64,000 nucleotides of DNA from a virus. Location: positions 1 through 64,000 of IMG/VR virus record IMGVR_UViG_3300021335_000011; one strand, written 5' to 3'. The notes below the pieces were generated by a model that was not told the origin of the DNA, did no database searches, and saw only the letters and a list, made by a program, of their open reading frames with translations. The position numbers and the translations under genes were made by a program. Positions 4,320-51,583 of the stretch are shown here, piece after piece; positions within the stretch are counted from its first letter, which is position 1; every line of letters starts with the position of its first letter.

Positions 4320-4325
4320 GGTACC

Positions 4326-7367: not shown

Positions 7368-7396
7368 TGTACAAACTAGTAAAAACAGGGTATAAT
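7368..7396 (+). promoter_or_regulatory. sigma70-like promoter (TGTACA-17-TATAAT)
   Basis: TGTACA at 7368-7373, a 17-base spacer ending in GGG, TATAAT at 7391-7396. It is preceded by a conserved box (GCGTTTTAGGCA) also found before the promoter at 13368. It drives the operon starting at 7430. An in-frame ATG at 7367 lies inside the promoter and is not a gene start. Confidence 0.88.
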
Positions 7397-7429
7397 GGTC
7401 CTATAATAAAGAAGGAAGAGGAGCCTTAC

Positions 7430-11043: not shown

Positions 11044-11667
11044 ATGAGAAGTGTTGTGTTAATGGCAGGTGTATTAGGTCTCTCTGCATGTAGTGATAAG
11101 TTGCCACCAAATTTGGCAATGTCTGAAAAAGAATTTGAATATCGTACTGAACAAGTCGAAAAACAAATTGATGATATGCCTAAGTGGTATACAAATATCC
11201 CAAAAGAAGATGATGCTGTATACGCAGTTGGCACTGCAGTCACACCAGATCTTCAACTCGCGGTAGATATCGCAGTACTATCAGCTAAGACTACTCTGGC
11301 CGATCGTGTTGATAGCCGCATTCGATCTCAACTGAAAACCTTTAAGTCTAAGTTAGGTTCTACTGATTTTGATTCAAACGTTGCTGTTGAGTTTGAACAA
11401 GTTACGCGTAATCTTATTGCAGATGCAGATGTAGCTGGGTACACAGTTAAAGAAAATGTCATTGTCCAGAATGGTACGCAATATCGATCATACGTTTTGC
11501 TTGAGTATAAAAACGAAGTAGCTAATCGAGTGATTCAAACTCGACTTGCCAAGAATAATGTACTGTTGTCTAAGTTTAAGTCTACGAAAGCATGGAAAGA
11601 ACTTGATACAAACGTTGAAGCTCAACAACAAGCAGAAGTAGATACACTAAAGGCATTAGCCGAATGA
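11044..11667 (+). CDS. LPP20-family lipoprotein
   Basis: ATG 11044 is preferred over 11032 because GGAG lies nine bases upstream and the N-terminus is then a lipoprotein signal: MRSVVLMAGVLGLSAC with an LSAC lipobox, Cys at residue 16. The 207-residue precursor contains PKWYTNIP and DAVYAVGTAVTPDLQLAVD, matching the LPP20 lipoprotein domain known from Helicobacter and Vibrio-type envelope proteins. It would be acylated and anchored in the host envelope. It precedes a ketoacyl synthase with a four-base overlap, a pairing that may be more than chance. Possible roles are superinfection exclusion or envelope remodelling; neither is shown. Confidence 0.75.
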   Translation: MRSVVLMAGVLGLSACSDKLPPNLAMSEKEFEYRTEQVEKQIDDMPKWYTNIPKEDDAVYAVGTAVTPDLQLAVDIAVLSAKTTLADRVDSRIRSQLKTFKSKLGSTDFDSNVAVEFEQVTRNLIADADVAGYTVKENVIVQNGTQYRSYVLLEYKNEVANRVIQTRLAKNNVLLSKFKSTKAWKELDTNVEAQQQAEVDTLKALAE

Positions 11668-38100: not shown

Positions 38101-40172
38101 ATAGAGTTGTACAAGACGAAACTATCCGTCAAGTAATTGGCGATCGTGTAGTTAACATCGCTATCATTCCATTCATGAGATCTAAAAAGATCTTCTTTAA
38201 AGCAGAAGGTTTAGCACCTAATGTTCAGATGTGGGCAAGATTTGATGGTGTACCTGTAAATGACTGGGTACGTGCAGAATCTTTCCAAAGGTTTGCAGCT
38301 ACAGAAGCAGAATACGGTAATAGAACTAATAACATTACTCAACACCCTGAAAATCCATCTACATTATTTAGTAATGCTAATGGAGTCTTAGAAGGTTCAT
38401 TCTTTATTCCATCTCAGAGAACTGGACTAAGATTTAGAACTGGTGAACGTGAGTTCAAGCTTATGGATATTACTGGTATAAATGAGCGTGATGCGCTGTC
38501 AATTGCAAAAGAAACATTTGAAGCAAATGGCGTAATTGAAACACGTCAACGTGATATTTTATCAACTCGTCATATTACTGTACGTGGCCAAACATCAGTA
38601 CGTATTCACGATCCAGTTGCTCAGTCATTCTTTGTAGATAAGAAAGATGGTATCTATTTAACTCGACTAAGGTTATTCTTTGCATCAAAAGATAGCACAG
38701 TTCCTGTTCAAGTAGAAATTCGGCCTATGGTTAATGGACATCCATCATCTGATACTGTGTTGCCTGGTTCAATTAAATTTATGAATCCAGCAAATATTAT
38801 TACTACTAATGATGCAACTAGTCCATCAGATTTTGTATTTGACGAGCCAGTATTCTTACAACCATTTACTGAGTACGCATTTGTTGTAAAAGCTGAATCA
38901 ACTAATTATAACATTTACATCGCTGAGACAGAGCAGTTCTTCTTAAATTCAACTGAAAAGAAAATTACTAAACAGCCTACACTCGGTTCATTGTTCTTAT
39001 CGCAAAATTCTACTACATGGGAACCAGCACAAACAAAAGATGCTATGTTCAGACTTTTCCATGCACAGTTCGATACATCTGGTGCAACTGTAGTATTAGA
39101 AAATGCTCCAATATCTACTAAGCTCGCACCGACTAATCCAGTTATTTTTGATTCATCGAGCAGTCGTATTATTATTAATCAACCGAATCACGGCTTTACA
39201 GCTGGCGACGAAGTTTCTATAACTGGACTTGATTCTGCTACAAACTACGGACAGAATCTATTAGGTGAAGATGTAATGGGTGCAAGAACAATCATTGATG
39301 TTGATGAGGATAACTTTACATTTACCGCTGGCGGAAGTAAATCAAACAACGCTGGAAGATTCGCATTTGGTGGTAACGACGTAATCACAACTCGCAATAT
39401 AATGTTTGAAACAGTTGTACCGTTCCTTGAGCCGCTACAGCCGCAGAATACTGGGATTTCTCTTGCTGGTAAATTTACTTCTGGTAAATCCCATGCTGGC
39501 ACAGAAACTCCATTCTTAAAAGATGTAGTTGATGTAGATTTAGAATTAAGAGAAAATAACATATTTACAGTTCCAAAAATGATAGGAAATCGTGGTCTTG
39601 AAATTAGCAATTTGGGAGCAGCGGTTAAATCTGCTACATTATCTGTAGGATTATCAACAGCAAATCCAGATGTGTGTCCAATGCTTGATATGCAAAGAGC
39701 TTCAATGTTCTTAATTCATAACCATATTGATCAGCAAGATTCAGCAAATGCACCAGTTAGTGCACCACCACATAATACACCAATCTTCTTTGGAGATGAA
39801 ACAACTGTTACTTCTGGTAGCCATATTGGTAAACACGTAGTGCGACCAGTTACTCTCGAAGAAGCTGCTATTGGTTTAAAAATTCTTATCGGCGCGCATC
39901 GGCCATCAGTAGCAGATTTTGATCTTTACTACAAAGTTGCTAACGATGGAGAAAACTTCAACGATATTGTGTGGACAGAAATTGCTAAAGAAGAAAGTTT
40001 ACCATCTGATGAGAATCCTAATGTGTTTAGGGATTATAGATATTTAGTTGGTGGACAAAATGGTCTATCAGCATCATTTACTCGATTTACGATTAAGATT
40101 GTAATGAAGTCATTAAGCTCGGCAAAACCACCGATATTTAGAGATTTGCGAATCATCGCGATGGCGGTATAA
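35127..40172 (+). CDS. giant baseplate/virion structural protein (DUF4815-like)
   Basis: A 1681-residue protein. The N-terminus (YKDDFKDSDHYHRILFNSGKQLQARELTQMQT, split by short loops) is the DUF4815 pattern of large marine-myovirus baseplate proteins. The middle has beta-rich fibre-like domains, and a coiled coil lies at about residues 790-815 (IQRLEERVDRLEEAT). The C-terminal third has FYVDKKDGIYLTRLRLFFASKD-like text and LGSLFLSQNSTTWEPAQ, as in outer wedge proteins. It may replace T4 gp7 and gp10 together (inference). RBS AAGGA lies six bases before the ATG. Confidence 0.68.
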   Translation: MPNTFTTSSFATTYKDDFKDSDHYHRILFNSGKQLQARELTQMQTIIQKEIERFGRNIFREGASVVPGGMTVNNKYEFIKIAASTNLPSDTSSMIGDTFTGQTSGVACKILEVIAATGSDPATIYVQYTNRSSVAISGAAIRMSPAENIVGASSGVTLTVQATNTSSNRAIGRGTKASMQTGTFFTQGHFVQADEQEVMISKYDSAPDENVGFVVNQDIVTVSDTLALYDNQGTLPNLTAPGADRYRIQLTLTTESEKDAADTFVFYGKIRDGLLIETVTGTDEYNKIAQFDAIKTKEINGDFIKKPFKIHYDSASGTEFNINISPGTAYVNGYRANKSDPTVIKVDKALTAVTLQNEPISAEFGNYVIINEVNGLPNIEDFESQDLRDDSGFGGATIGTARVKSVEEDGANWRYYLMDIQMNAGENFRNVKSLGTSATAFGNLELENTIAVIKDAANNNLLFGFPQSRVKSISDVVLTTQRRLTATADNNGNATFPGLGTNEAFENSNQWVFSRVAGGSFSPTSITGNGTQAASITGAPANTAIEVIAQVQKTGILRNKVLTETTITSTVNTPATGAPFVSLGKADVYSVDRIRAVDSDGADLFADFLADNGARDNFYDVGKIILKSNAKSPVGNIFVRFKYFDHTTPGHYFAANSYTGQLDYGDIPTHTLADGVTRIPLTDVIDFRSRKDDAGVGFSAGTARVNELPVNTSLITIDAEYYMPRFDKLVVDQEANLSIVTGAPSLTPQYAPTPQNTLELYRIEMNAGSKDEEDMVMRNIESKGFTMSDIQRLEERVDRLEEATALSLLEVDVNNLAVFDSAGNDRSKSGFLVDNFSDHSSSFTNNPEFRSSIDPLDRVLRPTFNEENVRLIYDSDLSTNAILKGDNVYIKYTEQTFIDQPEVSQTININPFAVITHQGNLTLSPSSDEWKETVYIAPRVINGGIRLNTNQAFLFNNWNWAWQGNNVNNLRLGQVTNSRTTRAGNRITTQRNRVVQDETIRQVIGDRVVNIAIIPFMRSKKIFFKAEGLAPNVQMWARFDGVPVNDWVRAESFQRFAATEAEYGNRTNNITQHPENPSTLFSNANGVLEGSFFIPSQRTGLRFRTGEREFKLMDITGINERDALSIAKETFEANGVIETRQRDILSTRHITVRGQTSVRIHDPVAQSFFVDKKDGIYLTRLRLFFASKDSTVPVQVEIRPMVNGHPSSDTVLPGSIKFMNPANIITTNDATSPSDFVFDEPVFLQPFTEYAFVVKAESTNYNIYIAETEQFFLNSTEKKITKQPTLGSLFLSQNSTTWEPAQTKDAMFRLFHAQFDTSGATVVLENAPISTKLAPTNPVIFDSSSSRIIINQPNHGFTAGDEVSITGLDSATNYGQNLLGEDVMGARTIIDVDEDNFTFTAGGSKSNNAGRFAFGGNDVITTRNIMFETVVPFLEPLQPQNTGISLAGKFTSGKSHAGTETPFLKDVVDVDLELRENNIFTVPKMIGNRGLEISNLGAAVKSATLSVGLSTANPDVCPMLDMQRASMFLIHNHIDQQDSANAPVSAPPHNTPIFFGDETTVTSGSHIGKHVVRPVTLEEAAIGLKILIGAHRPSVADFDLYYKVANDGENFNDIVWTEIAKEESLPSDENPNVFRDYRYLVGGQNGLSASFTRFTIKIVMKSLSSAKPPIFRDLRIIAMAV

Positions 40173-40378
40173 TGAGAAAGTTTGCAAAGGTAGAAGGATC
40201 ACAGACTTTAGTAAGAGACCTAAATACAGGTGCTATACTAAATACAGATAAATCTACTCTCGACAAAGCAAGGGAAGCAAAAGCTTTAAGGCAAAAGAAA
40301 AATCAAGAATTTGACGAACTTAAAGGTGAAGTCAAAGAAATGAAAGAAATGTTAACTAAACTGATAGAGAAACTATAA
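40172..40378 (+). CDS. small coiled-coil virion-region protein
   Basis: A 68-residue charged protein starting on the previous stop (TAATG) and ending on the next ATG. The N-terminus has VRDLNTGAILNTD; the C-terminal half is a heptad-like Lys/Glu/Leu coiled coil (FDELKGEVKEMKEMLTKLIEKL, broken here only for length). Likely a small structural or assembly factor. Confidence 0.65.
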   Translation: MRKFAKVEGSQTLVRDLNTGAILNTDKSTLDKAREAKALRQKKNQEFDELKGEVKEMKEMLTKLIEKL

Positions 40379-40932
40379 TGGCACGTTTTATACAAGTCAG
40401 CTTAACTAATCCTATAGGAACATGGGTTCAAAAGACAAATGCACTAAGCGGATTTGTAGGTGATCTTGATGATCTAAATCCAGCAATTAGACAAATTGTT
40501 CCAGCTGTTGACTCCAATGTAGTTACAGTTTTAAACTACCTTGATTCATCTCTTTCACAGATGCAAGATAGTGTGAATATGGAATATATGAAACTGGATT
40601 CAGGTGATTTCGGTTTAATTCGGGTTGATAGCGCTATTATTGGTTACTTGCAAGTAGATAGCGGATACTTTGGGTATCTACAAGCTAACAGCGCAGACAT
40701 CACTTATCTTACTGCAGATAGCGCAACAATTAATGGTGAATTAAGAGTAGAGCGATTAGTTGTATTTGGCACAGATTCTAACAATTCTGTAGTTTTACCG
40801 TATGGTGCTATAGATAGTGCAGAGATCCATGATAGCGCTGTAAGATCTAGACATTTCCAGAACTTAGTAACGACTCTTATTCTAGATTCTCAAGGACAAA
40901 CATTAAAGACAATATTCTCACCAGGTAAATAG
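40378..40932 (+). CDS. fibre-like protein with DS-rich repeats
   Basis: A 184-residue protein. After an N-terminal region (FIQVSLTNPIGTWVQKTN) come repeated 10-residue Asp-Ser units (LDSGDFGLIR, VDSAIIGYLQ, VDSGYFGYLQ, ANSADITYL, ADSATINGEL) likely forming a beta-helical or fibrous stem. The C-terminal third (RVERLVVFGTD ... SAEIHDSAVRSRHF) caps it. The spacing of DS units matches that in the large fibres. Confidence 0.68.
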   Translation: MARFIQVSLTNPIGTWVQKTNALSGFVGDLDDLNPAIRQIVPAVDSNVVTVLNYLDSSLSQMQDSVNMEYMKLDSGDFGLIRVDSAIIGYLQVDSGYFGYLQANSADITYLTADSATINGELRVERLVVFGTDSNNSVVLPYGAIDSAEIHDSAVRSRHFQNLVTTLILDSQGQTLKTIFSPGK

Positions 40933-40935
40933 ATT

Positions 40936-42192
40936 ATGACATTACGAAGACCTTTATATTATACTGATAGCGGCAATATCAAAGAAATGAGTGATATTGA
41001 ATTAGCTGATGTGCATGCTGAAGCAAAAAGATTCTATTTGAACAATCCACCAGTACAATTAACAGTTGTTAATAGCGGAGGTAATCTAGGCGGCATTAAC
41101 CAACGTCAAGTTATTGCTGGCGCGGCCACGAATAATTCAAGGCGTTTTTCTAGTAATAGTCCTGGAAATATTAGTGTTCAAACAATGACATATTCTAGGA
41201 TTCATGAAACTAAAGCTACGCCACCGTTTGGAGCTAATGGAAATTTTGATCTTACTACACTTAAAGGTAATTTAGGTACTAATTGGCCTGTATATTATAA
41301 TGATAGCGGTAATTTTGAACCATTTACTGATTCAGATTTTATAGATACGTTTGCAAACCCTGTTATCCAAGAGCTTGGTGCAGCTAATACTGATCCATTA
41401 TATGTTATTGGAGAAAGTTCTGGCGTTGTTAGTGGTAGATATACTAAAGTTTCTAATACTCCAGTATACACAGATCTTATTGCAAATATAGCAGCGTATA
41501 CTTCAGGTTCTTTACCAGAAACTAAAAAACAAAGTATAACAGTTCAAAACTGGTATTTGTGGAAATTAAAAAGTAATAGAACAGGTCAAGTGTTTATCGA
41601 TGTTGCTTATAGAGATTCAGCATATAATAGGCCAGTTTTAGGTACAGGCTTTGAGGTTGATTTAGAAAAAAGACCAGGTAGTACTTACATACATTCTATT
41701 AGATCTCCAGGTAGTGGATATGTAATCTCAGATAATTTTATTGTTACTGGCAATAAACTAGGTGGTAAATCACCTGAAAATGATTGGCATTATTATGTTG
41801 ATGCAATTGATTCTTTTGGTGGTGTAACTAATTTATTACCTCATCCATTTAATAATGGTATAGGTAATCGCTATAATCAACCGTTAACTCATACAGATAG
41901 TAGTAGTACACCTCTTGGAGTTCATCTTAGATCTATGAAGAAAACTGATTTTGAAACAATGGTAAATAGTGCTTTGACACATCAAGCAACGACAGAACCA
42001 GGCCAAATGATAGAATTTAAATGGAATCAGGGTGCACAAGTTGGAACTACTATCATTGACACACGTTATACTAATGCGACATCAAATCAACGAGATGAAC
42101 AAGATGCCGATAACTATAGGTCACAGAGAGTGCCAACAGGTGGAAACTTACAAGACGTAGACACGCATTACTTAGGAGTACGAATATTATGA
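40936..42192 (+). CDS. virion structural protein, unknown
   Basis: A 418-residue protein with RRPLYYTDSGNIKEMSDIELADV at the N-terminus. A second similar segment (NWPVYYNDSGNFEPFTDSDF) about 105 residues later suggests a tandem domain. A beta-rich C-terminus includes YIHSIRSPGSGYVISDNFIVTG. This is typical of baseplate-distal or fibre-connector proteins; no catalytic motif seen. Confidence 0.6.
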   Translation: MTLRRPLYYTDSGNIKEMSDIELADVHAEAKRFYLNNPPVQLTVVNSGGNLGGINQRQVIAGAATNNSRRFSSNSPGNISVQTMTYSRIHETKATPPFGANGNFDLTTLKGNLGTNWPVYYNDSGNFEPFTDSDFIDTFANPVIQELGAANTDPLYVIGESSGVVSGRYTKVSNTPVYTDLIANIAAYTSGSLPETKKQSITVQNWYLWKLKSNRTGQVFIDVAYRDSAYNRPVLGTGFEVDLEKRPGSTYIHSIRSPGSGYVISDNFIVTGNKLGGKSPENDWHYYVDAIDSFGGVTNLLPHPFNNGIGNRYNQPLTHTDSSSTPLGVHLRSMKKTDFETMVNSALTHQATTEPGQMIEFKWNQGAQVGTTIIDTRYTNATSNQRDEQDADNYRSQRVPTGGNLQDVDTHYLGVRIL

Positions 42193-42689
42193 GTATTCAA
42201 ATTACAGAAGCTAACTTAGTTAGCGCAGTATTTATGGATGATGAAGGCAGTTTAATACAAGCAGTTGTTTTAGGTGAAGACGGCTCAAATAATTCATTAA
42301 TTATTAGAACAGATCCTGAAGATTATTTGTTTCAACAATTAATGTTGGTATGTTCAGTGGATCAAATTAATGAATGGTCAGATGAATTTTATGCAATACA
42401 AAGACAGGACATTGAAAATTATCAGCTAAGATTAATAGAAGCTGGTGATGTAAGTTATATGCGGGCAACTGGTGCCGACGACAATGCTAGACTTATGTCA
42501 GAAGTTGCAACTATGCTATTTCAATATGACACTATTAATACCGAACATATTGAAAAGTTATTTAATCTTAAATTAGAAATGTTTGAATTAGCTGCAGTTA
42601 CCAATGCAACAGATGAACAGCGAGAAAGCCTTCGTGAAGCTGAAACTCCTATGGCTGCTATTCATATACTACATGGTATAATGCAGTAA
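42189..42689 (+). CDS. hypothetical protein, fibre-chaperone candidate
   Basis: A 166-residue acidic protein, last of the first rightward virion block. It has a beta N-terminus and a helical C-terminal two thirds (QLMLVCSVDQINEWSDEFY, EKLFNLKLEMFELAAV). It is non-repetitive, unlike its neighbours. Its position after fibre genes would fit an assembly chaperone (inference). The end overlaps the convergent gene by 21 bases, with no terminator visible between. Confidence 0.55.
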   Translation: MSIQITEANLVSAVFMDDEGSLIQAVVLGEDGSNNSLIIRTDPEDYLFQQLMLVCSVDQINEWSDEFYAIQRQDIENYQLRLIEAGDVSYMRATGADDNARLMSEVATMLFQYDTINTEHIEKLFNLKLEMFELAAVTNATDEQRESLREAETPMAAIHILHGIMQ

Positions 42690-43277
42690 TTTAACATCTG
42701 GATTAAATCCATCTAAATAAAAATATTTTCCTGGGTATTTAAGGTTTATTTGAGCTAACCAATCTTTGGTTGGTTCATCTACCCATCTGCCTGTCCAAGT
42801 ATCAGGTACAAATTTAAGATCTAAGTGTTTTTTAACCATGTATTCTACATAGTTTTCTTCTCCGTTTACTGGACCAGGTTTTGCGCCAATATCTATCCAA
42901 TGATTTTCGTATTTTTGTTTATTAGCTATAAACTCATCGTAAATATATTTAGTATCTGAAGGATAAAACTTATAAAAACCCCCGTTTAATTCACATTGCG
43001 AATCTTCCCACCAAGATCTTATACTTAGAAATTCTCCTCTTTTAATTGGGTATTCTAATAATTCCATATAGTTGTTTATTAAATCAATATCAATATCAAG
43101 TACAATAATTGGTTCATCAGACTTTTCTTTAAAAAAATTTAATTTATTCCATTGGAGTTTTAGACCATTATTTTCAGTATGTAGTACATGTAATCGATCA
43201 ATCTTTTCAATAAGATTTATTTCATAATCAAATCCATACTTATCACCAATGCGACACGTGTATACATCTAAACCCAT
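42669..43277 (-). CDS. GT-A type glycosyltransferase-like protein (cassette end)
   Basis: A 202-residue protein. VYTCRIGDKYGFDY opens it; PIIVLDIDIDLINN near residue 75 is the DxD-like metal motif; LNGGFYKFYP and a C-terminal VKLLHYTM (His of the metal site) follow the GT8-like order. It resembles its neighbour at 43268 in plan (CxxGDKYG at the N-terminus) and is probably a paralogue. Last gene of the antisense cassette, converging with the virion gene at 42689. Confidence 0.62.
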   Translation of the reverse strand: MGLDVYTCRIGDKYGFDYEINLIEKIDRLHVLHTENNGLKLQWNKLNFFKEKSDEPIIVLDIDIDLINNYMELLEYPIKRGEFLSIRSWWEDSQCELNGGFYKFYPSDTKYIYDEFIANKQKYENHWIDIGAKPGPVNGEENYVEYMVKKHLDLKFVPDTWTGRWVDEPTKDWLAQINLKYPGKYFYLDGFNPDVKLLHYTM

Positions 43278-44038
43278 AGTTTTTTTACCTGCTCAAATAG
43301 CTTTGCTGCATCATGTAATTCAAAATTAGTTGCGTCGTACTGATCAGTATTAAATACACACATAATTTTATCTTCTCTAATTTTATGTTTCGTTAAGTCA
43401 TCAGGCCATTCACATCCTCTATTAAAACTATAGTACATTGAAGATGGTACGAAGTCAAACAAATCTAAATGCCTTTGACTAATAAAATTGTCTGTACCAC
43501 CAGTAAATAAATGGTATATACGTTCGGCATATATCAGTGCGTCAATCCATATAAGTGCTAATTGCTTATCTTCCCACATATAGAATCCGCCATTATTATG
43601 CGCTCCTCTTCTATGTTTCCAATCAGGCCGTTTTTCGTATTCTCTATTATGCCACCACGATCTGCCAGTTAGGGGTTTATCGAATAAGTCGAGTAAGGGA
43701 GTCATATCATTATGTATGATCATATCTAGATCTAGCGCGATTCTCGTTCCTTTTAACCCCCAACCGTTAGGTTTAAAGTAATTAAGTTTTGGCCTATCCC
43801 ATAATCTTGGTAGACCATTTCTCCAATTATTAGATGCAAACATTTCTTGCGGAGTAGATTCTGGTAAGTCGGTTAAAAAAGGTAAAACTTCAATATCACT
43901 ATCAAGACCATGAGTATTTTCAGTCTGACAATAAAACTTATGTTTTGTTGGTAAGTGCCGTTTAACCATAGTCTTTAATCTATTAGCATATTCAGGGCCG
44001 TACTTATCACCCCACTTACTACATAAAACATGAATCAT
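43268..44038 (-). CDS. GT-A type glycosyltransferase-like protein
   Basis: A 256-residue protein opening MIHVLCSKWGDKYGPEY, with RIALDLDMIIHND (DxD) near residue 98, GRSWWHNREY and then AHNNGGFYMWED, the usual acceptor-side segment. GGTDNFISQRHLDLFDF suggests a GT8-like C-terminal region. Donor unknown. It overlaps the genes on both sides by 4-10 bases, so the cassette is translated as a coupled series. Confidence 0.66.
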   Translation of the reverse strand: MIHVLCSKWGDKYGPEYANRLKTMVKRHLPTKHKFYCQTENTHGLDSDIEVLPFLTDLPESTPQEMFASNNWRNGLPRLWDRPKLNYFKPNGWGLKGTRIALDLDMIIHNDMTPLLDLFDKPLTGRSWWHNREYEKRPDWKHRRGAHNNGGFYMWEDKQLALIWIDALIYAERIYHLFTGGTDNFISQRHLDLFDFVPSSMYYSFNRGCEWPDDLTKHKIREDKIMCVFNTDQYDATNFELHDAAKLFEQVKKLWV

Positions 44039-44655
44039 TGTCGACCTATAATCATAAATCTTTTACAGTCATTATAATTATCAAATGGTTTTTCACCCTG
44101 ATAATACACATCAGTAATAGCAGTTTGTTCTTTAAATTCTTCTAAGCTATGTGCACAATTTACGTGTGCATCTTCTTGAGTAAAATCATTTGATTGAAAT
44201 GCGCATAAGCCTTCAAAGTTTATATCTTTCATATGCCACATATGTTCGCATGAAGTATTGATTATAATATCTGCTTTCATATCTCTTATATCAAAACTAA
44301 TATCTTTTACTTCAGTCGTAATATCTTTATTCATCCATTTTGCTATTTTCATAGCTTCGATATCGTAGTCAATAAGATGTATATTTGATATATCAGTTAA
44401 ATAATATTTTAATAACGGTACTAAAACGGTGCCATACCATGATCCTAAAACTACAATCTTTTTATTTTTAATAGATGCAGCTGGAGACATAGATAATTGT
44501 TCTACTAACCATGATTTAGCCATAACTTGATTTTGAGAAAATGATTTCGCAAAGTCTTTTATCCTATGTGGATAATAATGATTTATATGTAGCATTGCAT
44601 TTGAAAATTCCCAAAACGGAATAGGAAATTTATGCATTGTTCGTGTAGTACTCAA
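44035..44655 (-). CDS. class I SAM methyltransferase-like protein
   Basis: A 206-residue protein from TTG 44655; ATG 44637 is an alternative start with a poorer ribosome-binding site. SAM motifs are IVVLGSWYGTVLVPLL (motif I), IHLIDYDIEAMKIA (motif II, acidic residue) and ADIIINTSCEHMWHM (motif IV). The rest resembles small phage methyltransferases acting on metabolites or proteins. It overlaps the radical SAM gene by 26 bases. Confidence 0.68.
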   Translation of the reverse strand: MSTTRTMHKFPIPFWEFSNAMLHINHYYPHRIKDFAKSFSQNQVMAKSWLVEQLSMSPAASIKNKKIVVLGSWYGTVLVPLLKYYLTDISNIHLIDYDIEAMKIAKWMNKDITTEVKDISFDIRDMKADIIINTSCEHMWHMKDINFEGLCAFQSNDFTQEDAHVNCAHSLEEFKEQTAITDVYYQGEKPFDNYNDCKRFMIIGRQ

Positions 44656-45400
44656 AACTTTCTTTTCCTAATACTTGACCATTTACATTACAACTTAAAC
44701 ACGGACTCATATCTCTACGATTTTTAGCTAACATATTTCGATATGAGTTCATATAACTAGATTCCCAAATTTTATGTATAGGTTCTCTGTTTACATTACC
44801 CATAACTTTAGATACATTCCAATCATTACTACATAACCCGACATCGCCATTCCAATTTATAAACATTTTGTAAAACGGTAAAAAACATGCTTTGTTAATT
44901 TTTAATGATTTTGGTTTTTTCCATAAATCATTTCTATTAACTTCAACTTCTGTAGGCAGTCCATCATAATAATGTTTATAGATTCTTTCTATATCATATT
45001 GTTGTAAAAAAGACTCATAATGTTCTGTCATATCTGCATCATACATTGATACTTTTATGCAATTTATACCCGCGTTGACAAGCCCGCGACTTAAATTAGG
45101 TGTTAAATAATCACCATTAGTTATAAGTTTTATCTGTTTAAATTGTACACTATTTTTAAGAGTTTGTACATAGTTAATTATCTTTTTATGCAATAAAGGT
45201 TCTCCAAAACCAGCTAAGGTTATGGTTCCTGTATAATTAATTTCTCTAAGTGCTGATGAAATAGAGTCAATTGTTTTATGACTCATTTGATTTTTTGTAT
45301 TTTCGAAACCTACTCCGCGAGGGCAAAAACTGCAGGTACGATTGCATATATCAATGAGATTAAGTTCTACTGAAGAAAGCGTGTTCTTTGTCAAGTGCAC
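44630..45400 (-). CDS. radical SAM enzyme with SPASM-like C-terminus
   Basis: A 256-residue protein from GTG 45400. The [4Fe-4S]-binding CxxxCxxC is C19, C23, C26 (ICNRTCSFCPRG). The TITLAGFGEPLL segment matches the GGE-like SAM-binding motif. The C-terminus has additional Cys (KACFLPFYKMFINWNGDVGLC, PCLSCNVNG) in the SPASM arrangement that binds auxiliary clusters. SPASM proteins often modify peptides or proteins, but some act on sugars or aminoglycosides. The only radical enzyme in the cassette; the start overlaps the aminotransferase by 41 bases. Confidence 0.85.
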   Translation of the reverse strand: MHLTKNTLSSVELNLIDICNRTCSFCPRGVGFENTKNQMSHKTIDSISSALREINYTGTITLAGFGEPLLHKKIINYVQTLKNSVQFKQIKLITNGDYLTPNLSRGLVNAGINCIKVSMYDADMTEHYESFLQQYDIERIYKHYYDGLPTEVEVNRNDLWKKPKSLKINKACFLPFYKMFINWNGDVGLCSNDWNVSKVMGNVNREPIHKIWESSYMNSYRNMLAKNRRDMSPCLSCNVNGQVLGKESFEYYTNNA

Positions 45401-46238
45401 TTTTTGTTACCATACTACGATTTATCAATGACATCCGAGCATGATCATCAAACTCTTTTAGATGATAATGTCGAATAAACTTTTCATAATTTTTTATCAA
45501 CACGTAATTAGAGTGTGACTCTATACAATTATAATTCTTTTCTATATATGCTTTAGTTTGATTCATTCTTTTTACATGATGTGGTATTTCATCGAGTATA
45601 GAAACTAAGTTGCGAGTCATACCACCTATGCATACTTGTGCGGGTCTCAAGTTTTGTATTTCATTTATAATAGGCTCATGACCAATGGCCCATCCGAATC
45701 GAGCTCCAGGTAATGCAATAGATTTACTTAACGTTTTTAATATAAGTAATTTACTTGAACCTAGTTTTCTCTCGGGCATATCACAAAAATCGCCATAGGC
45801 TTCATCAACGATAACTAATTTGTGTTTATCTAATAATTTATCGTATGATTCTAATCTTGTACCATTAGTGCCGTGCGGGTTACTTACATAACAGACATCA
45901 TCACCATGCGGTATGTTATATAATTTTTGTATCATATGGATTGGTTTCCATGAATTATGATGTGATGTCATAGATAATCCGCGTTCTTTGATGATTAAAC
46001 CAATACGCATTATTAATTCACTTAATCCTAAACCAATTGCAATTTGACGAGTATTTACTGAATGATAGTCTGCTAATATATTATAACATCTACTAGTATC
46101 AACATAGCTATTTAAGTCAAATTCCCATATAGGGTTTGCTGCATCAAAACATACATTTGTTGATAAATCAATCTTATAATCGTGATGATATTGATCTTCA
46201 TCCCAAGCTGGTCTTAAGCCCAGATTTTTTGTATCCAT
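45360..46238 (-). CDS. HisC/CobD-like class I/II PLP aminotransferase
   Basis: A 292-residue fold-type I enzyme, shorter than HisC (about 350). Visible are IGLGLSELIMRIG (PLP-phosphate region), YVSNPHGTNGT, LVIVDEAYGDFCD (Asp contacting the PLP nitrogen) and LKTLSKSIALPGARFGWAIG with the Schiff-base Lys. HisC/CobD relatives act on phosphorylated amino acids or amino alcohols. In the cassette it may supply an amino sugar or an aminated side chain. It overlaps neighbours by 41 and 25 bases. Confidence 0.82.
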   Translation of the reverse strand: MDTKNLGLRPAWDEDQYHHDYKIDLSTNVCFDAANPIWEFDLNSYVDTSRCYNILADYHSVNTRQIAIGLGLSELIMRIGLIIKERGLSMTSHHNSWKPIHMIQKLYNIPHGDDVCYVSNPHGTNGTRLESYDKLLDKHKLVIVDEAYGDFCDMPERKLGSSKLLILKTLSKSIALPGARFGWAIGHEPIINEIQNLRPAQVCIGGMTRNLVSILDEIPHHVKRMNQTKAYIEKNYNCIESHSNYVLIKNYEKFIRHYHLKEFDDHARMSLINRSMVTKSALDKEHAFFSRT

Positions 46239-46828
46239 TTTTCTTCTCTTAATTCATCTTGCTTCTTTTCTAAGAATATATGAATTTGATCTAATGGTTT
46301 ATCATAGAGTAAGAAATCTTTTGGAAACCTGTGTTCTATGAATGAATCAATACCAGTAAAAATACTCGTTATTTTTTCTTTGTTGTTTATAAAATATTCC
46401 CATATATGGTGTCGCTGTGTATCTTTATTCCACATTAATACCGAAGAATTAATAGAACAATAACGTTGAGTATTGCCAATTGTATCTTTTTTTAACTGAC
46501 TTAAATCTACCCAATCTGTGTGTATAAATTTCATATGTTTACCAGGATTGTAAAAATTGTTTATATCACCTTTAACAAGAATATCTAAATCAAAAAATAT
46601 ACCTGATTCTATAAAACTTTCGTCAAATAAAACCATTTTTGCCCACCATTTTTCTAATCCATAGTCAGGCATTTTAATAGTACGTATATACGAGGGCAAT
46701 GTAGAAGTATCATCAGTGATACAATATAATTTGTAATGTCTGTCATAGCATTGAGAGATCATACTCTCTAACTTAATTACAAATTCATCAGTATACCGAG
46801 TGCCTACCTTCACGCAATAAAAATTCAT
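46214..46828 (-). CDS. GT-A type glycosyltransferase-like protein
   Basis: A 204-residue protein. MNFYCVKVGTRYTDEFVIKLESMI opens as in its relatives here; IFFDLDILVKGD near residue 98 is the DxD motif; SINSSVLMWN is the acceptor-side segment; TGIDSFIEHRF follows. C-terminal half is basic and charged (EKKQDELREEKW). Fits a nucleotide-sugar transferase of the LPS type. Overlaps the next upstream gene by 41 bases. Confidence 0.64.
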   Translation of the reverse strand: MNFYCVKVGTRYTDEFVIKLESMISQCYDRHYKLYCITDDTSTLPSYIRTIKMPDYGLEKWWAKMVLFDESFIESGIFFDLDILVKGDINNFYNPGKHMKFIHTDWVDLSQLKKDTIGNTQRYCSINSSVLMWNKDTQRHHIWEYFINNKEKITSIFTGIDSFIEHRFPKDFLLYDKPLDQIHIFLEKKQDELREEKWIQKIWA

Positions 46829-47426
46829 ATCTGTCTAACCATAAATCTGAGTGTTTAGTATTGCTATATTTATCGTGTAGTGGAACTCCATCTGTAAAAT
46901 GAATACCTTTAGGATTATTGAAATCATAATAACCCTCGAGCGTATTCCATTCTAAAGGCAAATTGCCAATGTGTTTATCATCTAACCAACGGAATTGATG
47001 AAAAAATAGTGGATCTTCGGTACTTAAAGTATACGGAGTTAAAACTTTATTTGCAGGATGAGAACAATTCCATAGCATTAATGATGACCAATTCTTTCTT
47101 TTATACGTGGTCTGCTCTTGGCCAACCATTTTAAGTTTAGATTTCGGTCTATAGTTAGGATGTTTTGCTACACACACTGCATATTTTGAATCTGCATAAT
47201 GTAATAGTTTTCTCAGATCATCTGTAAAATAAAAGTCTGAGTCACAAAATACATGCCAGCCGTCGTACTTCATCATATATGGAACCATGAATCGTGACAT
47301 AGTAAAGGCTGTAGAACCTTTTCTTAAAAACATATTTTGTGTTGGTATAGATTCAACTGACACTGTTGATTCACATACAAGATATTGATCTACGAGATCA
47401 TCATCCCATCCGATTACGCATTTCAT
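46788..47426 (-). CDS. glycosyltransferase-like protein
   Basis: A 212-residue protein. WHVFCDSDFYFTDDL near residue 60 is a DxD-type motif; YAVCVAKHPNY, SSLMLWNCSHPANKVL and LPLEWNTLEGYYDF follow in GT8-like order, and IHFTDGVPLHDKY has a candidate metal-binding His. Lacks the CxxGDKYG start seen in the other cassette transferases, so it forms a distinct subgroup. Overlaps the GT-B-like gene by 26 bases. Confidence 0.62.
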   Translation of the reverse strand: MKCVIGWDDDLVDQYLVCESTVSVESIPTQNMFLRKGSTAFTMSRFMVPYMMKYDGWHVFCDSDFYFTDDLRKLLHYADSKYAVCVAKHPNYRPKSKLKMVGQEQTTYKRKNWSSLMLWNCSHPANKVLTPYTLSTEDPLFFHQFRWLDDKHIGNLPLEWNTLEGYYDFNNPKGIHFTDGVPLHDKYSNTKHSDLWLDRYEFLLREGRHSVY

Positions 47427-48195
47427 CTTTTAAATCACCTGTATCAATGTTTGTTACACCAGTAAAATATTTTTGTACTATCTTATTATCTTCATAGTGA
47501 CTAACGTTATATGTTAATCCTAAATTTCCATTACCTAATAGTACTGGTCTCATTTCGTTCCCTAAAAACATTTCTAATTTTGGTTTCGAAACAAGTAATA
47601 TCGGTGTACCTGTTAATATTGCTAAACACATAAGCGTAGTTCTTTCGGTAACTACAAACTTAGCATGTATCATACAATTAACTATATCTTCCCATTTATC
47701 GCTATAGCTAAATTCTCTAATATTGTGCTCGTTAATACCATCAAGCTGGATACCTCTTACTTGAGCAGTATATTGATCGAACCCCTTAGACTCTGCTTTA
47801 TATACAGCAATATAGTCTTTATCACCTTTCCATTGTTTTTTAAATGGCCAAATGGATGTCCATGTTTCTATATCAGAAAATGGGACATTATCTACTTCAA
47901 AGATTGTATAATCAACTACGAAATCTGGTTTAGTAAAACTATTAATTAAGTATACTAATCTTTCTAGATTTGTTTCTTTATCTTTATCTTTGAATTTACC
48001 AAGTTTTTTTGAATCTACAATTATACGTATAGACCAAACGCTGATTTTAGAAATTTCATTTAACTTTTGGGCTTTAGTTAGTGATGCAGATAATTGGCCT
48101 GCAGAAACATTAAGATCCCACAGTTCTCGCATAATAATTGTGTCGTGATAAGGAGCGTGCGAAGGGTGGTAATTAACTGAGTAAATTTTCTTCAT
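47401..48195 (-). CDS. GT-B/GT9-like putative glycosyltransferase
   Basis: A 264-residue protein. The end of the N-terminal domain has YIAVYKAESKG; the C-terminal domain has WEDIVNCMIHAKFVVTERTTLMCLAILTGTPILLVSKPK, which resembles the nucleotide-sugar-binding part of heptosyltransferases and polysaccharide pyruvyl transferases (segment given with breaks in mind: ERTTLMCLAILTGTPIL). The family call is by pattern only. It joins the four GT-A-like proteins of the cassette. Confidence 0.5.
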   Translation of the reverse strand: MKKIYSVNYHPSHAPYHDTIIMRELWDLNVSAGQLSASLTKAQKLNEISKISVWSIRIIVDSKKLGKFKDKDKETNLERLVYLINSFTKPDFVVDYTIFEVDNVPFSDIETWTSIWPFKKQWKGDKDYIAVYKAESKGFDQYTAQVRGIQLDGINEHNIREFSYSDKWEDIVNCMIHAKFVVTERTTLMCLAILTGTPILLVSKPKLEMFLGNEMRPVLLGNGNLGLTYNVSHYEDNKIVQKYFTGVTNIDTGDLKDEMRNRMG

Positions 48196-48784
48196 TTAGT
48201 ACCTGATCAATTGCTGCATAATATTGGTTTATATCTCCATCATTGTGTATATGGTAGTCGACAGTATCTCTTAGTTGATCTATGAATTTTTCTCTAGCGT
48301 CTAACTCTTTTTCAATTTCAGGCTTGACCAAATACATGTAATTACTTTTTCCTGCAATTCTTGGATCTGATTCAGAATATTGTGCTACTAATCTTTCAAT
48401 TTGCGTTTCACGAGGAGCTGTAATAAGAACATAAGTATTATCATGATCAGGAAATGTGTTTTGAATATGAACTGTTGTACCAGGACACGGAAAATTACAT
48501 ACTTTAAAAAAAGGTCGATCATACATTTTTTCATACGCAAGTTGATTATTAGGCTGTAACATAGCAACATATTCCCTTGAAAACTCAGCATCTAGTTCAG
48601 CATGCGCTTCAGCTTCACCCATTAAATCTGTTGTAGTTCGACTTGGACCTAATGGCCTTTCGTATGACTCATTAAGTGTTGGGTACTCAAAGTCAAATAT
48701 ATTTTGTGTCGGAACACCGCGAGCAAGTGATCTTTGTAAAAAAGTTTTAACTCCTACTCCTTGTAGACCAGTTAATACAAGCAT
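48173..48784 (-). CDS. P-loop kinase-like protein
   Basis: A 203-residue protein. TGLQGVGVKTFL at residues 5-16 is a Walker A-like loop with one extra residue before KT. TYVLITAPRETQIERL resembles a kinase or sulfotransferase region, and the C-terminal half is acidic and helical. It may phosphorylate a small molecule or nucleotide, or be a sulfotransferase relative. The aberrant P-loop lowers certainty. Overlaps both neighbours. Confidence 0.5.
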   Translation of the reverse strand: MLVLTGLQGVGVKTFLQRSLARGVPTQNIFDFEYPTLNESYERPLGPSRTTTDLMGEAEAHAELDAEFSREYVAMLQPNNQLAYEKMYDRPFFKVCNFPCPGTTVHIQNTFPDHDNTYVLITAPRETQIERLVAQYSESDPRIAGKSNYMYLVKPEIEKELDAREKFIDQLRDTVDYHIHNDGDINQYYAAIDQVLNEENLLS

Positions 48785-49509
48785 TAAATTCTCCTAGACA
48801 TCATAGTGTCGTATGCTGAAATTTTTAATCCTATAAAGAATTGATATATGTTATTACCAATAGCATGTGCCTCATGAACCAAGGACGAATCAAAAATATA
48901 AATTTTACCAGGTTTTATGTTATTTATAATTTTATCGTCCATTTTTAATTGCATTTCTGTTGAAGTTGTTCCCCATAATCTTAAATTAGGAGACGGCACT
49001 ATAACATCTACATGCTTTTTAAAATGGCCCATTGCATCCCAACGCAATATAGCACTGCGACAAAGGTGCTCATCAAAAACTTCAATTAATGGTTTTAAAG
49101 ATGGTAAGCTACATAATTCAGTTTTTACATCAATTTCATGGTCAAATAGTATGTTATCAATATTTTGATGTTCCATAAAGTGCTCATCTAAAGGCATTCT
49201 TGATGGATCGTTTTCTTCATCTAATTTACCGGTAAGATTAACTAAAGGAATTCCGTACCGCGGAAAATGTTTATGTGTATCACCCCAATGACTAAAATTA
49301 TTTTTATAAGTTTCTATTTCTTGTAAGAAATTATCTACATCAATTTCAATGTCGGTTTCTACTATTGGTGCAGTATGTAATTCATTATACTCTGCTGCTT
49401 CAATTGCTGGTTGAGAAATATATTTAAAGATAAATGCCATGAGCTTATCTTCTGGTTGTCCCTTCAAATGCGGGTGAGTAGAAAATAATATGTCTAATGC
49501 TTCTTTCAT
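48784..49509 (-). CDS. 2-oxoglutarate/Fe(II) hydroxylase-like protein 1
   Basis: A 241-residue protein. HVD at residues 166-168 and His at 212/215 (SSLVHEAHAIGNN) form a plausible His-Asp-His facial triad; SAILRWDAMGHFKKHVD and LKPGKIYIFD-like text (IKPGKIYIFD) match double-stranded beta-helix dioxygenases. No Arg lies ten residues after the second His, unlike the next two genes, so 2-oxoglutarate anchoring must differ. First of three related genes in a row. The substrate may be a protein Asp/Asn or a small molecule. Confidence 0.55.
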   Translation of the reverse strand: MKEALDILFSTHPHLKGQPEDKLMAFIFKYISQPAIEAAEYNELHTAPIVETDIEIDVDNFLQEIETYKNNFSHWGDTHKHFPRYGIPLVNLTGKLDEENDPSRMPLDEHFMEHQNIDNILFDHEIDVKTELCSLPSLKPLIEVFDEHLCRSAILRWDAMGHFKKHVDVIVPSPNLRLWGTTSTEMQLKMDDKIINNIKPGKIYIFDSSLVHEAHAIGNNIYQFFIGLKISAYDTMMSRRI

Positions 49510-50033
49510 TGCACCATCCTTTTGTAAAAATTTGTCAAATCGCTACCGCCACGAAGACAAACTGTAAAATGCAATCGTTCTTCTTTACCAAGATTTATAG
49601 CTGTGTGCTTAAGTGTAGTTTTTAGGCGATACGTACAACCAATATCTGACATGCGAAGTACATTATCTTCAACTAAGAAAATCGCATCTTCATTTGTTTG
49701 TATAGGAATATGAATTCTATCTGTAAGATCGTAGTGATATGAGTAACCTCTAAATTCACTTCCTAACCACATAAATCTTCCACGACAAACGCCATATAAA
49801 TTATCAAGGTCGTTATAGACTTCTTCAACATAAGTATTTTTAAATAAACGATTGACCTTTGTAAAATCATTCTGATCTAGCTTTTGTTTAAACAAATCGC
49901 CAGTCGGTAATTCATAAGTTTCTCCGTCTGGAGAACTAGTATGAATTTGTTGCGCTTTTAGTTTTGAATCTAATAGACAATGTAAAAGTTTCTTAGAATC
50001 ATATCGTTGTTCTAATTTTTCAAGCATTCGCAT
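49506..50033 (-). CDS. aspartyl/asparaginyl beta-hydroxylase-like protein 2
   Basis: A 175-residue protein with the clearest hydroxylase pattern of the three: HYD at 100-102, H143 in LKHTAINLGKEERLH, and R153 ten residues later as a 2-oxoglutarate anchor. RIHIPIQTNEDAIF between them is typical of the Asp/Asn beta-hydroxylase family, which hydroxylates Asp or Asn in proteins. The coupled neighbours and DS-rich fibres nearby raise the idea of hydroxylated fibre Asp residues (inference). Confidence 0.68.
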   Translation of the reverse strand: MRMLEKLEQRYDSKKLLHCLLDSKLKAQQIHTSSPDGETYELPTGDLFKQKLDQNDFTKVNRLFKNTYVEEVYNDLDNLYGVCRGRFMWLGSEFRGYSYHYDLTDRIHIPIQTNEDAIFLVEDNVLRMSDIGCTYRLKTTLKHTAINLGKEERLHFTVCLRGGSDLTNFYKRMVQ

Positions 50034-50473
50034 ACTTCCTCATAACTAATATCAAAAAAAGATATTTTGAATAAGTATCTATCTTTCTTCCCAAGATTCA
50101 TAACACCATGTTTAATTGTAGTATTTAATACTGCTGTCGTGTATTTAAAGTCACCTATTCCTGGAAATGATACAGGAGCTGGATTATCACTTAATACGTG
50201 GTTGATGGAACATGTGGTATTATAATCAATATGTGGTAATAATACACTATTTTCTTTTAAAATATAATATCGTGGTTTACCAAGTGGCAAAGAATATACA
50301 TTGCAGAAGTGTTCCATTTCTGCAGTGGCCACATCTAATTTTTCATTTGCTATTTTCCAATTATCTGTTGTACCATGTTTAGGATCAGAATAGCTATTTT
50401 GTTTTTGATTAAATAATTCTGACAATAATAATTCATTATCAAAATCATAATCTATGTTGCAAACGGGTTTCAT
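50012..50473 (-). CDS. aspartyl/asparaginyl beta-hydroxylase-like protein 3
   Basis: A 153-residue protein with HID at 81-83, H122 in IKHGVMNLGKKDRYL and R132, the same spacing as protein 2. TTCSINHVLSDNPAPVSFPG lies between. It has the shortest N-terminal region of the three. Overlaps gene 2 by 22 bases and the next upstream gene by 29 bases. The triad looks complete, so activity is plausible. Confidence 0.64.
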   Translation of the reverse strand: MKPVCNIDYDFDNELLLSELFNQKQNSYSDPKHGTTDNWKIANEKLDVATAEMEHFCNVYSLPLGKPRYYILKENSVLLPHIDYNTTCSINHVLSDNPAPVSFPGIGDFKYTTAVLNTTIKHGVMNLGKKDRYLFKISFFDISYEEVCECLKN

Positions 50474-51092
50474 AATCCATCCTTAATGCATGTTCGTCAT
50501 ATGACATAACTTTAGGGTTCCAATCTTCGAATTTGTAATCTCCTCTTGTGTAATACATCATATTTTGGTAACAACTTGTTTCTTCACAATTGGCTACTTG
50601 CACTAAACCTTTATCATAGTTTATCCATTCAATATTGTGAAATTCACTCATTAGTTTTACTACAGCTTTCCACCATAGTTGTTGTTTAGCTCTTTTATTT
50701 CTTTGTTGCATGCTTATAAAAATAAGCTTATGATCAACATTTTCTAAAGTAAATTTTAAAAAATCAGAAAATCCATCCATTAGTTCTTTAGAAAACATTG
50801 GCGGTTTTGCTTGATATTTTCTAGTATTTGGAAATGTGTAATGCCGGTTGCAATATCGTAATATATCTTTGTTATATTCTTTTACTCCCGTCATGATAAT
50901 AGGATTTCCATCATGACCATACAAAACACAATAAAAAATGTGGTCAGAGATCTTAAGATTTTCTTTGGTGTAATTATCTCTTAACCAATTATTTTTATCT
51001 GACAAACAAAGCTCGCGCACTCTTTCGAACTCTTTATTATCGTAATCGAAAATCCAAACTGTACCTGCGTTTATTTTAATCTCTCTATCCAT
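50445..51092 (-). CDS. hypothetical protein, possible GNAT-like fold
   Basis: A 215-residue protein, first gene after the cassette promoter. HIFYCVLYGHDGNPIIMTGVKEYN followed by a predicted helical stretch (MDGFSDFLKFTLENV) and LIFISMQQRNKRAKQQLWWKAVVKLM could be a GNAT-like acetyltransferase arrangement, but the acetyl-CoA loop is not clear. Otherwise unrecognised. Its start is 37 bases downstream of the -10 element. Confidence 0.45.
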   Translation of the reverse strand: MDREIKINAGTVWIFDYDNKEFERVRELCLSDKNNWLRDNYTKENLKISDHIFYCVLYGHDGNPIIMTGVKEYNKDILRYCNRHYTFPNTRKYQAKPPMFSKELMDGFSDFLKFTLENVDHKLIFISMQQRNKRAKQQLWWKAVVKLMSEFHNIEWINYDKGLVQVANCEETSCYQNMMYYTRGDYKFEDWNPKVMSYDEHALRMDYETRLQHRL

Positions 51093-51128: not shown

Positions 51129-51157
51129 ATTATACCATATTTTGAGCTGATTGTACA
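51129..51157 (-). promoter_or_regulatory. sigma70-like promoter of the antisense cassette
   Basis: On the minus strand TGTACA (51157-51152), a 17-base spacer ending in TGG, then TATAAT (51134-51129). It is a consensus member of the family seen at 7368 and 9548, in the opposite orientation, so the cassette is predicted to be on earlier than the surrounding late genes. Confidence 0.85.
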
Positions 51158-51159: not shown

Positions 51160-51167
51160 TATAAATA
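51160..51167 (+). promoter_or_regulatory. T4-type late promoter, distal of a tandem pair
   Basis: TATAAATA, three bases from the -35 of the opposing cassette promoter and 63 bases before the ATG at 51230. Loading here would compete with the opposing promoter. Confidence 0.6.
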
Positions 51168-51194
51168 GAGTAATAACTCTTAAACAGTTTTATT

Positions 51195-51202
51195 TATAAA
51201 TA
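51195..51202 (+). promoter_or_regulatory. T4-type late promoter, proximal of a tandem pair
   Basis: TATAAATA, 27 bases before the ATG at 51230, inside the palindromic string TATTTATAAATA (51191-51202), so a minus-strand reading also exists. Confidence 0.66.
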
Positions 51203-51229: not shown

Positions 51230-51583
51230 ATGGCACAATACGAGTACTTTACATTTGATCAAGGTTCAGACATCGCAGTTGAGCTTCATCTGCAAGATGC
51301 ATCAGGAAATAAGAAAAATTTAACTAATTACTCAGGCGCTGCCACTATGAAGCGAAGTTATAGTAGCGATAGCGCGGATACGCAATTCTTCGACTTTGCA
51401 ATTCAAGCCCCTCCTACAGATGGCATTGTTACTTTATCGCTGACTAATGCTCAAACTGATGCTATGGAAGCTGGAAAATATGTGTATGACGTAGAGATTT
51501 CTTATGTAGATAGTAACAGTAATACTATTATCGAAAGAATTTTAGAAGGCAAAATAGACCTTACACCTTCTGTAACAACATAA
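51230..51583 (+). CDS. small virion/fibre-associated protein
   Basis: A 117-residue beta-rich protein (YEYFTFDQGSDIAVELHLQD, MEAGKYVYDVEISYVD, ILEGKIDLTPSV) resembling an Ig-like or BppU-type domain of baseplate proteins. DS motifs (SYSSDSADTQFF, VDSNSN) are present. First gene of the second rightward virion block. Confidence 0.58.
   Translation: MAQYEYFTFDQGSDIAVELHLQDASGNKKNLTNYSGAATMKRSYSSDSADTQFFDFAIQAPPTDGIVTLSLTNAQTDAMEAGKYVYDVEISYVDSNSNTIIERILEGKIDLTPSVTT

Follow-up and report, generated by a model that had tools for sequence, protein, structure and literature searches.

Organization and conservation of the cassette

The window analysed is a stretch of 64,000 nucleotides (positions 1 to 64,000 of IMG/VR virus record IMGVR_UViG_3300021335_000011) from a marine T4-like phage, probably of a SAR11 host. 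It contains 13 minus-strand ORFs, g1 to g13 (42669-51092), each overlapping its neighbour by 1-41 bp. The plus-strand gene at 42189-42689 meets the cassette tail to tail with an overlap of 21 bp, and the plus-strand gene at 51230-51583 is transcribed divergently from it. The first-pass annotation had described thirteen overlapping genes splitting the rightward tail genes; the coordinates were confirmed and the complete order was identified at the same place in four further IMG/VR contigs (L001, L003, L006 and L011). In L002, L004, L005 and L056 the cassette runs off the contig ends. The homologues occur in related phages as a full block at a fixed locus, and not only scattered in unrelated contexts. 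All 13 genes presented dN/dS values far below 1, indicating purifying selection. Since the order recurs in relatives and dN/dS is this low, the arrangement is more than chance, and the cassette is a conserved, co-inherited and exchangeable operon. No near match to the window DNA was found among phage records.

The cassette is located inside the published pelagimyophage "host recognition cluster" (HRC), here from VrlC to d51.2, a region described as hypervariable and adjoining VrlC by Zaragoza-Solas et al. 2020 (PMC7029224). Like HRC cassettes, it is part of a variable stretch of structural genes that adjoins VrlC. The left border is a VrlC homologue (35127-40172, plus strand), just 29-31% identical to the pelagiphage versions; identity is 31-33% with Mosig VrlC and its C48C1 counterpart and 29% with HTVC008M. 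Genes for a small tail protein, fibre and tail proteins follow (40172-42689, plus strand), and the right border is d51.2 (51230-51583, plus strand), coding for an L-shaped-tail-fibre-assembly-like protein (PHROG_3304, E 1e-16). The distal border of the HRC is the neck gene gp14, which lies outside the 72-kb record of the window; the record ends still within fibre genes. The same site was empty in L129 and L130 (where lower fibre DS was observed, in these two contigs only), contained only fibre genes in L088 and L096 and was filled differently in others. Backbone and cassette were discordant, VrlC being 40-42% identical and single cassette genes 76-80%; the block is therefore mosaic and exchanged.

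Among 80 loci of the g11 family, an island border gene was identified within 10 kb in 34, and in only 2 was there a gene of another genome region. This linkage argues for decoration of the virion, in which soluble enzymes would act in the cytoplasm on tail-fibre or baseplate proteins not yet assembled, adding hydroxyl groups and sugars that alter receptor binding or stability. In mycobacteriophages, transferases encoded beside structural genes glycosylate virion proteins. Virion decoration is a serious possibility, although one held at clearly less than an even chance. Against it, the window and L011 share 80% identity in g12 and 48% in the fibre gene u40.9, the values for L003 being 72% and 56%; the divergence of fibre and cassette therefore do not track each other. 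The DS-rich fibres first proposed as the decorated target are still a possible one but gained no support, and the idea of them as a marked acceptor was dropped: fibre DS enrichment did not differ between loci that have cassette-family genes and loci that lack them (Mann-Whitney p = 0.18), and Mosig, where relatives of g11 and g13 are present, has fibres that are not DS-rich.

Predicted functions of the 13 proteins

The protein g10 (44630-45400) belongs to the BtrN type of radical SAM proteins and has a single auxiliary 4Fe-4S site. It matched BtrN in the PDB over its full length (E 5e-29), as well as Pfam Radical_SAM and SPASM, and 7 of 7 cysteines were aligned: three of the radical-SAM motif CxxxCxxC and four of the auxiliary cluster, in a compact protein. 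Its neighbour g9 (45360-46238) is a HisC/CobC-like PLP aminotransferase of fold type I (Pfam Aminotran_1_2, E 4e-13; HisC in the PDB) with invariant D145, K172, R180 and R268. Against NCBIfam hisC it reached E 1e-19 and 70.7 bits, far under the TIGR01141 equivalog cut-off of 276.55, so it was assigned a HisC-like fold and rejected as a histidinol-phosphate aminotransferase. The third element, g1 (50445-51092), is a GNAT-fold N-acyl/acetyltransferase-like protein by predicted structure. Its AlphaFold model is of moderate confidence (pLDDT 69, pTM 0.66), and the PDB matches listed were nearly all GNAT acetyltransferases (best E 1.4e-5); identity between 13-gene lineages was 44-58%. From these assignments, g10 would convert a secondary alcohol group, on a sugar or a cyclitol, into a ketone, g9 would transaminate the ketone to an amine and g1 would N-acylate the amine.

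The pair of radical SAM protein and aminotransferase is recurrent. It was also identified in L019, and S-SCSM2R presents a HisC and SPASM pair some 3 kb upstream of the gene for a long tail fibre, a position consistent with virion decoration. At SAR11-type loci, a class-III aminotransferase was found within 3 genes of the g10 relative in 12 of 20. The class-III aminotransferase of the window (6279-7349) was rejected as its counterpart, since it shares just 24-29% identity with the enzymes encoded next to g10 relatives in SAR11.

Three proteins are hydroxylase-like and are proposed to carry out hydroxylations. The first, g3 (49506-50033), belongs to the Asp/Asn beta-hydroxylase family of 2OG-Fe(II) oxygenases, with a profile match to Cpz10 (7v4f, E 7e-17), an invariant H100-x-D102...H143 and the iron-ligand region aligned with Cpz10; the single-sequence match to Pfam Asp_Arg_Hydrox (E 0.003) was below the cut-off. 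The family membership of g3 is in favour of virion decoration, but its nearest solved relative, Cpz10, hydroxylates a small molecule. Tentative 2OG-Fe(II)-oxygenase-like proteins are g2 (50012-50473; H81-x-D83...H122 and R132 invariant), linked weakly to g3 by profile (hhalign probability 36%), and g4 (48784-49509; H166-x-D168...H212 invariant), with a weak match to PF13759 (E 0.08, below cut-off) and no significant hhalign match to g3. The least conserved gene is g5 (48173-48784), coding for a P-loop kinase-like protein. Its P-loop is GxQGxG(V/Q)xT, lacking the Walker lysine in 5 of 5 aligned relatives; g5 of L011 contains GSGRTT and its likely counterpart in L018 GAGKTT.

Five putative transferases, g6, g7, g8, g12 and g13, would assemble and transfer the sugars. 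GT-A-like proteins with a DxD motif and family similarity are g7 (46788-47426; PHROG_28018, E 9e-42, a family without function, its phage relatives being annotated as glycosyltransferase or nucleotide-diphospho-sugar transferase), g8 (46214-46828; PHROG glycosyltransferase, E 5e-10, invariant DLD) and g12 (43268-44038; hhalign to g8 with probability 96% and E 3e-9, invariant DLD). The GT-A assignment of g13 (42669-43277) comes from its motif and weak HMM links to g8 and g12 only, the hhalign comparison with g8 being not significant; D61-I62-D63 and NGGFYKF are invariant as far as Mosig. A GT-B-like fold is tentative for g6 (47401-48195), whose model is of low confidence (pLDDT 60) and whose best Foldseek matches, indicative only, were mostly GT-B transferases (POMGNT2, GT9, TibC and WaaC; weak, E 0.003-0.1). 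The remaining protein, g11 (44035-44655), is methyltransferase-like, with LGSWYGT and NTSCEHM motifs and a Mosig relative annotated as methyltransferase; it may methylate the sugar product. The family to which it belongs is large, viral contigs containing at least 597 relatives. For g11 there was no informative match in Pfam, NCBIfam or the PDB, neither the g11 nor the g13 family matched a functional profile, and PDB profile searches with g2, g4, g6, g8 and g11 gave nothing useful. The gene functions first assigned, to 12 of the 13, were mostly sustained and extended, with g1 added as GNAT-like and the P-loop of g5 found to lack its lysine.

The dedicated sugar or modification pathway first proposed is well supported by the conserved operon, the family assignments and the fixed locus, and the cassette is very probably a sugar-tailoring and glycosyl-transfer operon, whose product appears to be an unusual amino-sugar glycan.

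Promoters

A TG-extended sigma70-type promoter (TGTACA-17-TATAAT, 51129-51157, minus strand) precedes the cassette. Its conservation extends over the 13-gene relatives, L062 and L089, and for most of these no more than 1 shuffle in 200 reached such a match. The same intergenic region contains a late-type TATAAATA box in the cassette direction (51191-51198, minus strand) and two more for the downstream tail-fibre gene (51160-51202, plus strand); across the entire window the octamer occurs 11 times against 12.7 expected, no more often than by chance. The sigma70-like promoter of the first-pass annotation stands, but the contrast it drew with late-promoter neighbours is less clear, and late transcription of the cassette is possible too. 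A conserved promoter other than a late one alone speaks against virion decoration and for modification of a host glycan; the late-type box speaks against the latter, as does the presence of late-type boxes only at several of the other antisense cassettes that occupy this locus. Promoter timing was accordingly rejected as a discriminator.

Relatives in host genomes

A relative of g10 was identified in 23 of 197 genomes of the SAR11 family. In a separate count, also of 23, cellular relatives of g10 were from Pelagibacterales by record title, with the exception of one Campylobacterales MAG and three Clostridia MAGs. In an annotated SAR11 locus the g10 relative lies among genes for NeuB, PIG-L, an epimerase, an NTP transferase, GT2 and O-antigen ligase. 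For g9, no host homologues other than generic HisC were found. The SAR11 chromosomes sampled yielded none of g11, g12 and g13: the lone match (1/197) was on a Mosig-like phage contig, the rest being 0/197. The core is therefore not a host surface pathway, which favours virion decoration over a host glycan.

These contexts bear also on DNA hypermodification, first raised as an alternative, in which kinase, PLP enzyme, radical SAM protein and transferases would work on phage nucleotides or bases. Known hypermodification pathways combine such genes, and a thymidylate-synthase-family gene is present on one diverged contig with the core cassette, that of L137. No thymidylate-synthase-family (PF00303, hydroxymethylase) gene was found in the 72-kb record, a genome fragment, and g10 relatives in surface-polysaccharide loci, a g5 without Walker lysine in the five aligned relatives and a g11 family that tracks the tail-fibre island argue against it. 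The alternative gained no positive support and is unlikely, with a minimal probability left to it.

Comparison with known systems

Sugar-gene islands beside the tail-fibre genes were known from such phages, and the cassette is a well-defined variant of them. It shares with the HRC the tail-fibre region beside VrlC, glycosyltransferases, radical-SAM cassettes and beta-hydroxylases; the available part of the HRC paper (PMC7029224) names the class and contains no description of this 13-gene operon and how it is conserved as one unit, of a BtrN/HisC/GNAT logic or of the empty sites. The cluster Mosig_00082-00094 of Mosig EXVC030M occupies the same island and contains aminotransferase and radical-SAM enzymes, with relatives of g11 (E 1.5e-24), g13 (2e-22) and, weakly, g12. 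It differs in its other tailoring enzymes (nitroreductases, MoaA-like, carbamoyltransferase), and no g9 or g10 relatives were found in it.

Among relatives with solved structures, those closest to g10 and g3 are enzymes that tailor antibiotics. BtrN, the butirosin radical-SAM dehydrogenase, resembles g10 in its full length, seven cluster cysteines and aminotransferase partner; the partner in the window, unlike that of BtrN, is HisC-like, the cassette is a phage operon with transferases and the activity of g10 is a prediction from sequence. Cpz10 is the caprazamycin beta-hydroxylase, but no nucleoside pathway was seen here. Both, along with the nitroreductases, radical-SAM enzymes, carbamoyltransferase and ArnB-like aminotransferase of the Mosig cluster, are compatible with a diffusible small molecule, produced in the infected cell by a phage-encoded pathway of natural-product character (aminocyclitol or nucleoside type) and serving, for instance, as a signal or as a weapon against competitors. 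Such a product has a slim chance: no exporter or self-protection gene was seen, five transferases suggest an oligosaccharide, the nearest cellular settings of g10 are loci for surface glycans and PDB relatives are biased towards well-studied antibiotics.

Phage Gtr seroconversion would have the same outcome as the cassette if a host glycan is the target. Gtr systems use membrane-bound transferases and a flippase. No transmembrane segment was predicted in any of the 13 proteins (Kyte-Doolittle), and LPS seroconversion of the Gtr type was rejected; the predicted solubility is consistent both with virion decoration and with a host glycan modified on the cytoplasmic side.

Candidate acceptor and meaning

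Slightly favoured as acceptor is the envelope glycan of the infected host, namely LPS core or lipid A at the cytoplasmic side, whereby the receptor recognised by the neighbouring fibres would be altered or hidden. As a whole, an exchangeable glycan-modification operon in the tail-fibre island with this acceptor is plausible, at a little under an even chance, and fibre decoration is nearly as likely. The full-length BtrN match of g10, its recurrent pairing with an aminotransferase, the GNAT fold of g1 and the mostly Pelagibacterales polysaccharide loci are in favour of the host glycan, as is a second envelope-type cluster (GT25, desaturases and FabF) in the same record. Modification of the host O-chain by HRC glycosyltransferases is, in PMC7029224, a proposal without direct test. 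On the other side, the cassette encodes no lipid-carrier transferase, flippase, polymerase or ligase, its location suits fibre decoration equally, the g11 and g13 families match no functional profile, and g2, g4, g5 and g6 are tentative.

Phages of abundant marine bacteria spend kilobases of tight genomes on sugar-tailoring genes by their receptor-binding proteins, and this cassette is unusually well defined, with 13 conserved genes, fixed borders, empty sites and a BtrN-anchored chemical logic. Because it is so defined and g11 and g13 have relatives in Mosig, a SAR11 phage cultured on HTCC1062, the question of host surface or virion is directly testable. More speculative is a phage-only "glyco-code", in which the cassette would be one allele among interchangeable pathways, locked to the tail-fibre locus, that put a phage-made amino-sugar glycan on the phage's own fibres. 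If that were true, host range or escape would depend on the chemistry of the sugars in addition to the sequence of the fibres.

Organization and conservation of the cassette

The cassette comprises 13 genes, numbered g1 (50445-51092, minus strand) to g13 (42669-43277, minus strand) in transcription order, and belongs to a 72,061-base IMG/VR virus record. The first-pass annotation had described 13 minus-strand reading frames within the rightward tail genes; all were found, with neighbours overlapping by 1-41 bp. The G+C content is about 0.29-0.34, somewhat below most of the surroundings. A sigma70-type promoter (51157-51129, minus strand) presents 17-base spacing and a TG extension, both conserved across the 13-gene relatives as well as at the diverged loci L062 and L089. 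A late-type TATAAATA box was identified in the cassette direction (51191-51198), and likewise in L052 and L054.

By tblastn, the related loci L001, L003, L006 and L011 contain all 13 genes with order, strand and neighbours unchanged, and in L002, L004, L005 and L056 the cassette was seen as far as each contig reaches. Identity to the relatives is about 33-80% (minimum at g5), and every one of the 13 genes shows a dN/dS far under 1 wherever a pair allows both rates to be computed. The VrlC homologue at the left border (35127-40172) shares 40-42% identity with L001 and L011, while g10 reaches 76% with L001 and g12 80% with L011; against L003 the values are 70% (VrlC), 65% (g10) and 72% (g12). 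Between L001 and L011, VrlC is 91% identical and g1-g5 just 48-72%. These divergent identities indicate that the cassette is a mosaic, exchanged independently of the backbone.

Enzyme families

The DxD motif is retained in g7, g8, g12 and g13. A PHROG family of glycosyltransferases matches g8, to which g12 is in turn related; g13 is a putative transferase from motifs and weak HMM links, and g6 looks GT-B-like in a low-confidence model. Transmembrane segments were predicted in none of the 13 proteins. Radical_SAM and SPASM domains form g10, which matches the BtrN profile over its full length (5e-29) with three radical-SAM and four auxiliary-cluster cysteines aligned. A HisC-like fold-type-I PLP enzyme was identified in g9 (score far under the HisC equivalog cut-off) and a GNAT fold is predicted for g1. 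The Asp/Asn beta-hydroxylase family is represented by g3, whose closest solved relative is Cpz10, a caprazamycin biosynthesis enzyme (PMC9814697); in g2 and g4 the HxD...H motif is invariant and profile support is weak. Finally, g5 is P-loop-like, the Walker Lys being absent in five aligned relatives, and g11 appears methyltransferase-like from a motif and the annotation of a single relative.

Variation of the island

PMC7029224 describes a hypervariable pelagimyophage 'host recognition cluster' between VrlC and gp14, containing transferases, radical-SAM cassettes and beta-hydroxylases, for which its authors proposed host O-chain modification. The comparison of sites took in 80 relatives of d51.2, the gene at the right border. 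Two are empty (L129 and L130, merely 56 bp between the upstream flank gene u40.2 and d51.2) and L088 and L096 have just 1.8 kb; other loci carry cassettes of differing content, in both orientations. L018 retains g2-g4, g6, g8 and g11-g13, lacks g7, g9 and g10, and also has a ketoacyl synthase and an additional oxygenase. The former (1057-2193), placed within the cassette locus, is of the same family as a FabF-like ketoacyl synthase with Cys-His-His residues elsewhere in the window (11664-12824); the L018 g1-like gene (2755-3303, minus strand) is opposite to the rest of its cassette. L019 retains g9 and g10 and adds QueC-like and second radical-SAM genes; its insert (2190-6349), between g7/g9/g10 and g8, encodes the QueC-like PP-loop protein, the radical-SAM protein (twitch-like) and an accompanying protein of 265 aa. 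The island of the cultured phage Mosig contains relatives of g11 and g13 and, weakly, of g12, g3 and g4. The cassette is a conserved, selected and soluble operon of the listed families at a fixed hotspot.

Origin of the components

By record titles, the 23 cellular loci of the g10 family belong to Pelagibacterales (19), Clostridia MAGs (3) and a Campylobacterales MAG (1). Of 197 genomes from one SAR11 family, 23 carry a member of it. Neighbours in L029 are PIG-L, NeuB, epimerase, nucleotidyltransferase, GT2 and O-antigen-ligase genes. Of 20 loci, counting that from Campylobacterales, 12 have a class-III aminotransferase no more than three genes away. In contrast, g11 was identified in at least 597 viral contigs and in 1 of the 197 genomes, where its contig (7.6 kb) is itself a Mosig-like phage cassette. 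This contig (L224, G049:C49; 74.7% DNA identity over 85%) comes from an infected cell or contamination. Neither g12 nor g13 was found in the 197 genomes, empty results without a positive control. With g10 relatives in host glycan loci and g11-g13 nearly or wholly missing from these SAR11 genomes, the transferase core is apparently phage-borne, and the sugar-tailoring step resembles that of host surface-glycan enzymes.

Proposed pathway and target

In the proposed pathway g10 would oxidize an alcohol to a ketone, g9 would convert it to an amine and g1 would N-acylate the amine; the five transferases would carry out assembly and g2-g4 hydroxylation. A second sugar/lipid cluster (7-8966) comprises methyltransferase-like frames, three GT25-family (LPS-type) transferases, a GT-A-like frame, two membrane fatty-acid-desaturase-like frames (4663-6295), a class-III aminotransferase (6279-7349) and an FkbM-like methyltransferase (8184-8966).

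Modification of the virion fibres is close behind the leading reading, favoured by the cassette location, the core found solely in phage and the soluble proteins. The DS-rich fibres, earlier suggested as acceptor, gained no support when tested. Huge fibre-like frames with many DSAYV-type repeats occupy 54049-62391 and L220 2544-5633, DS dipeptides being about 3.6x expected in the 2780-aa one, and fibre genes continue up to the end of the record. In the fibres downstream of the empty sites, which are only two contigs (L129 and L130), the DS observed/expected ratio is about 1 vs about 2.2 elsewhere. Two further readings, DNA hypermodification and a diffusible product, are of minor weight.

The cassette is real and well defined; the published class of islands had foreshadowed part of it. 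The promoter, the host loci of g10, the second envelope-type cluster and the published proposal slightly favour the host envelope as its target.
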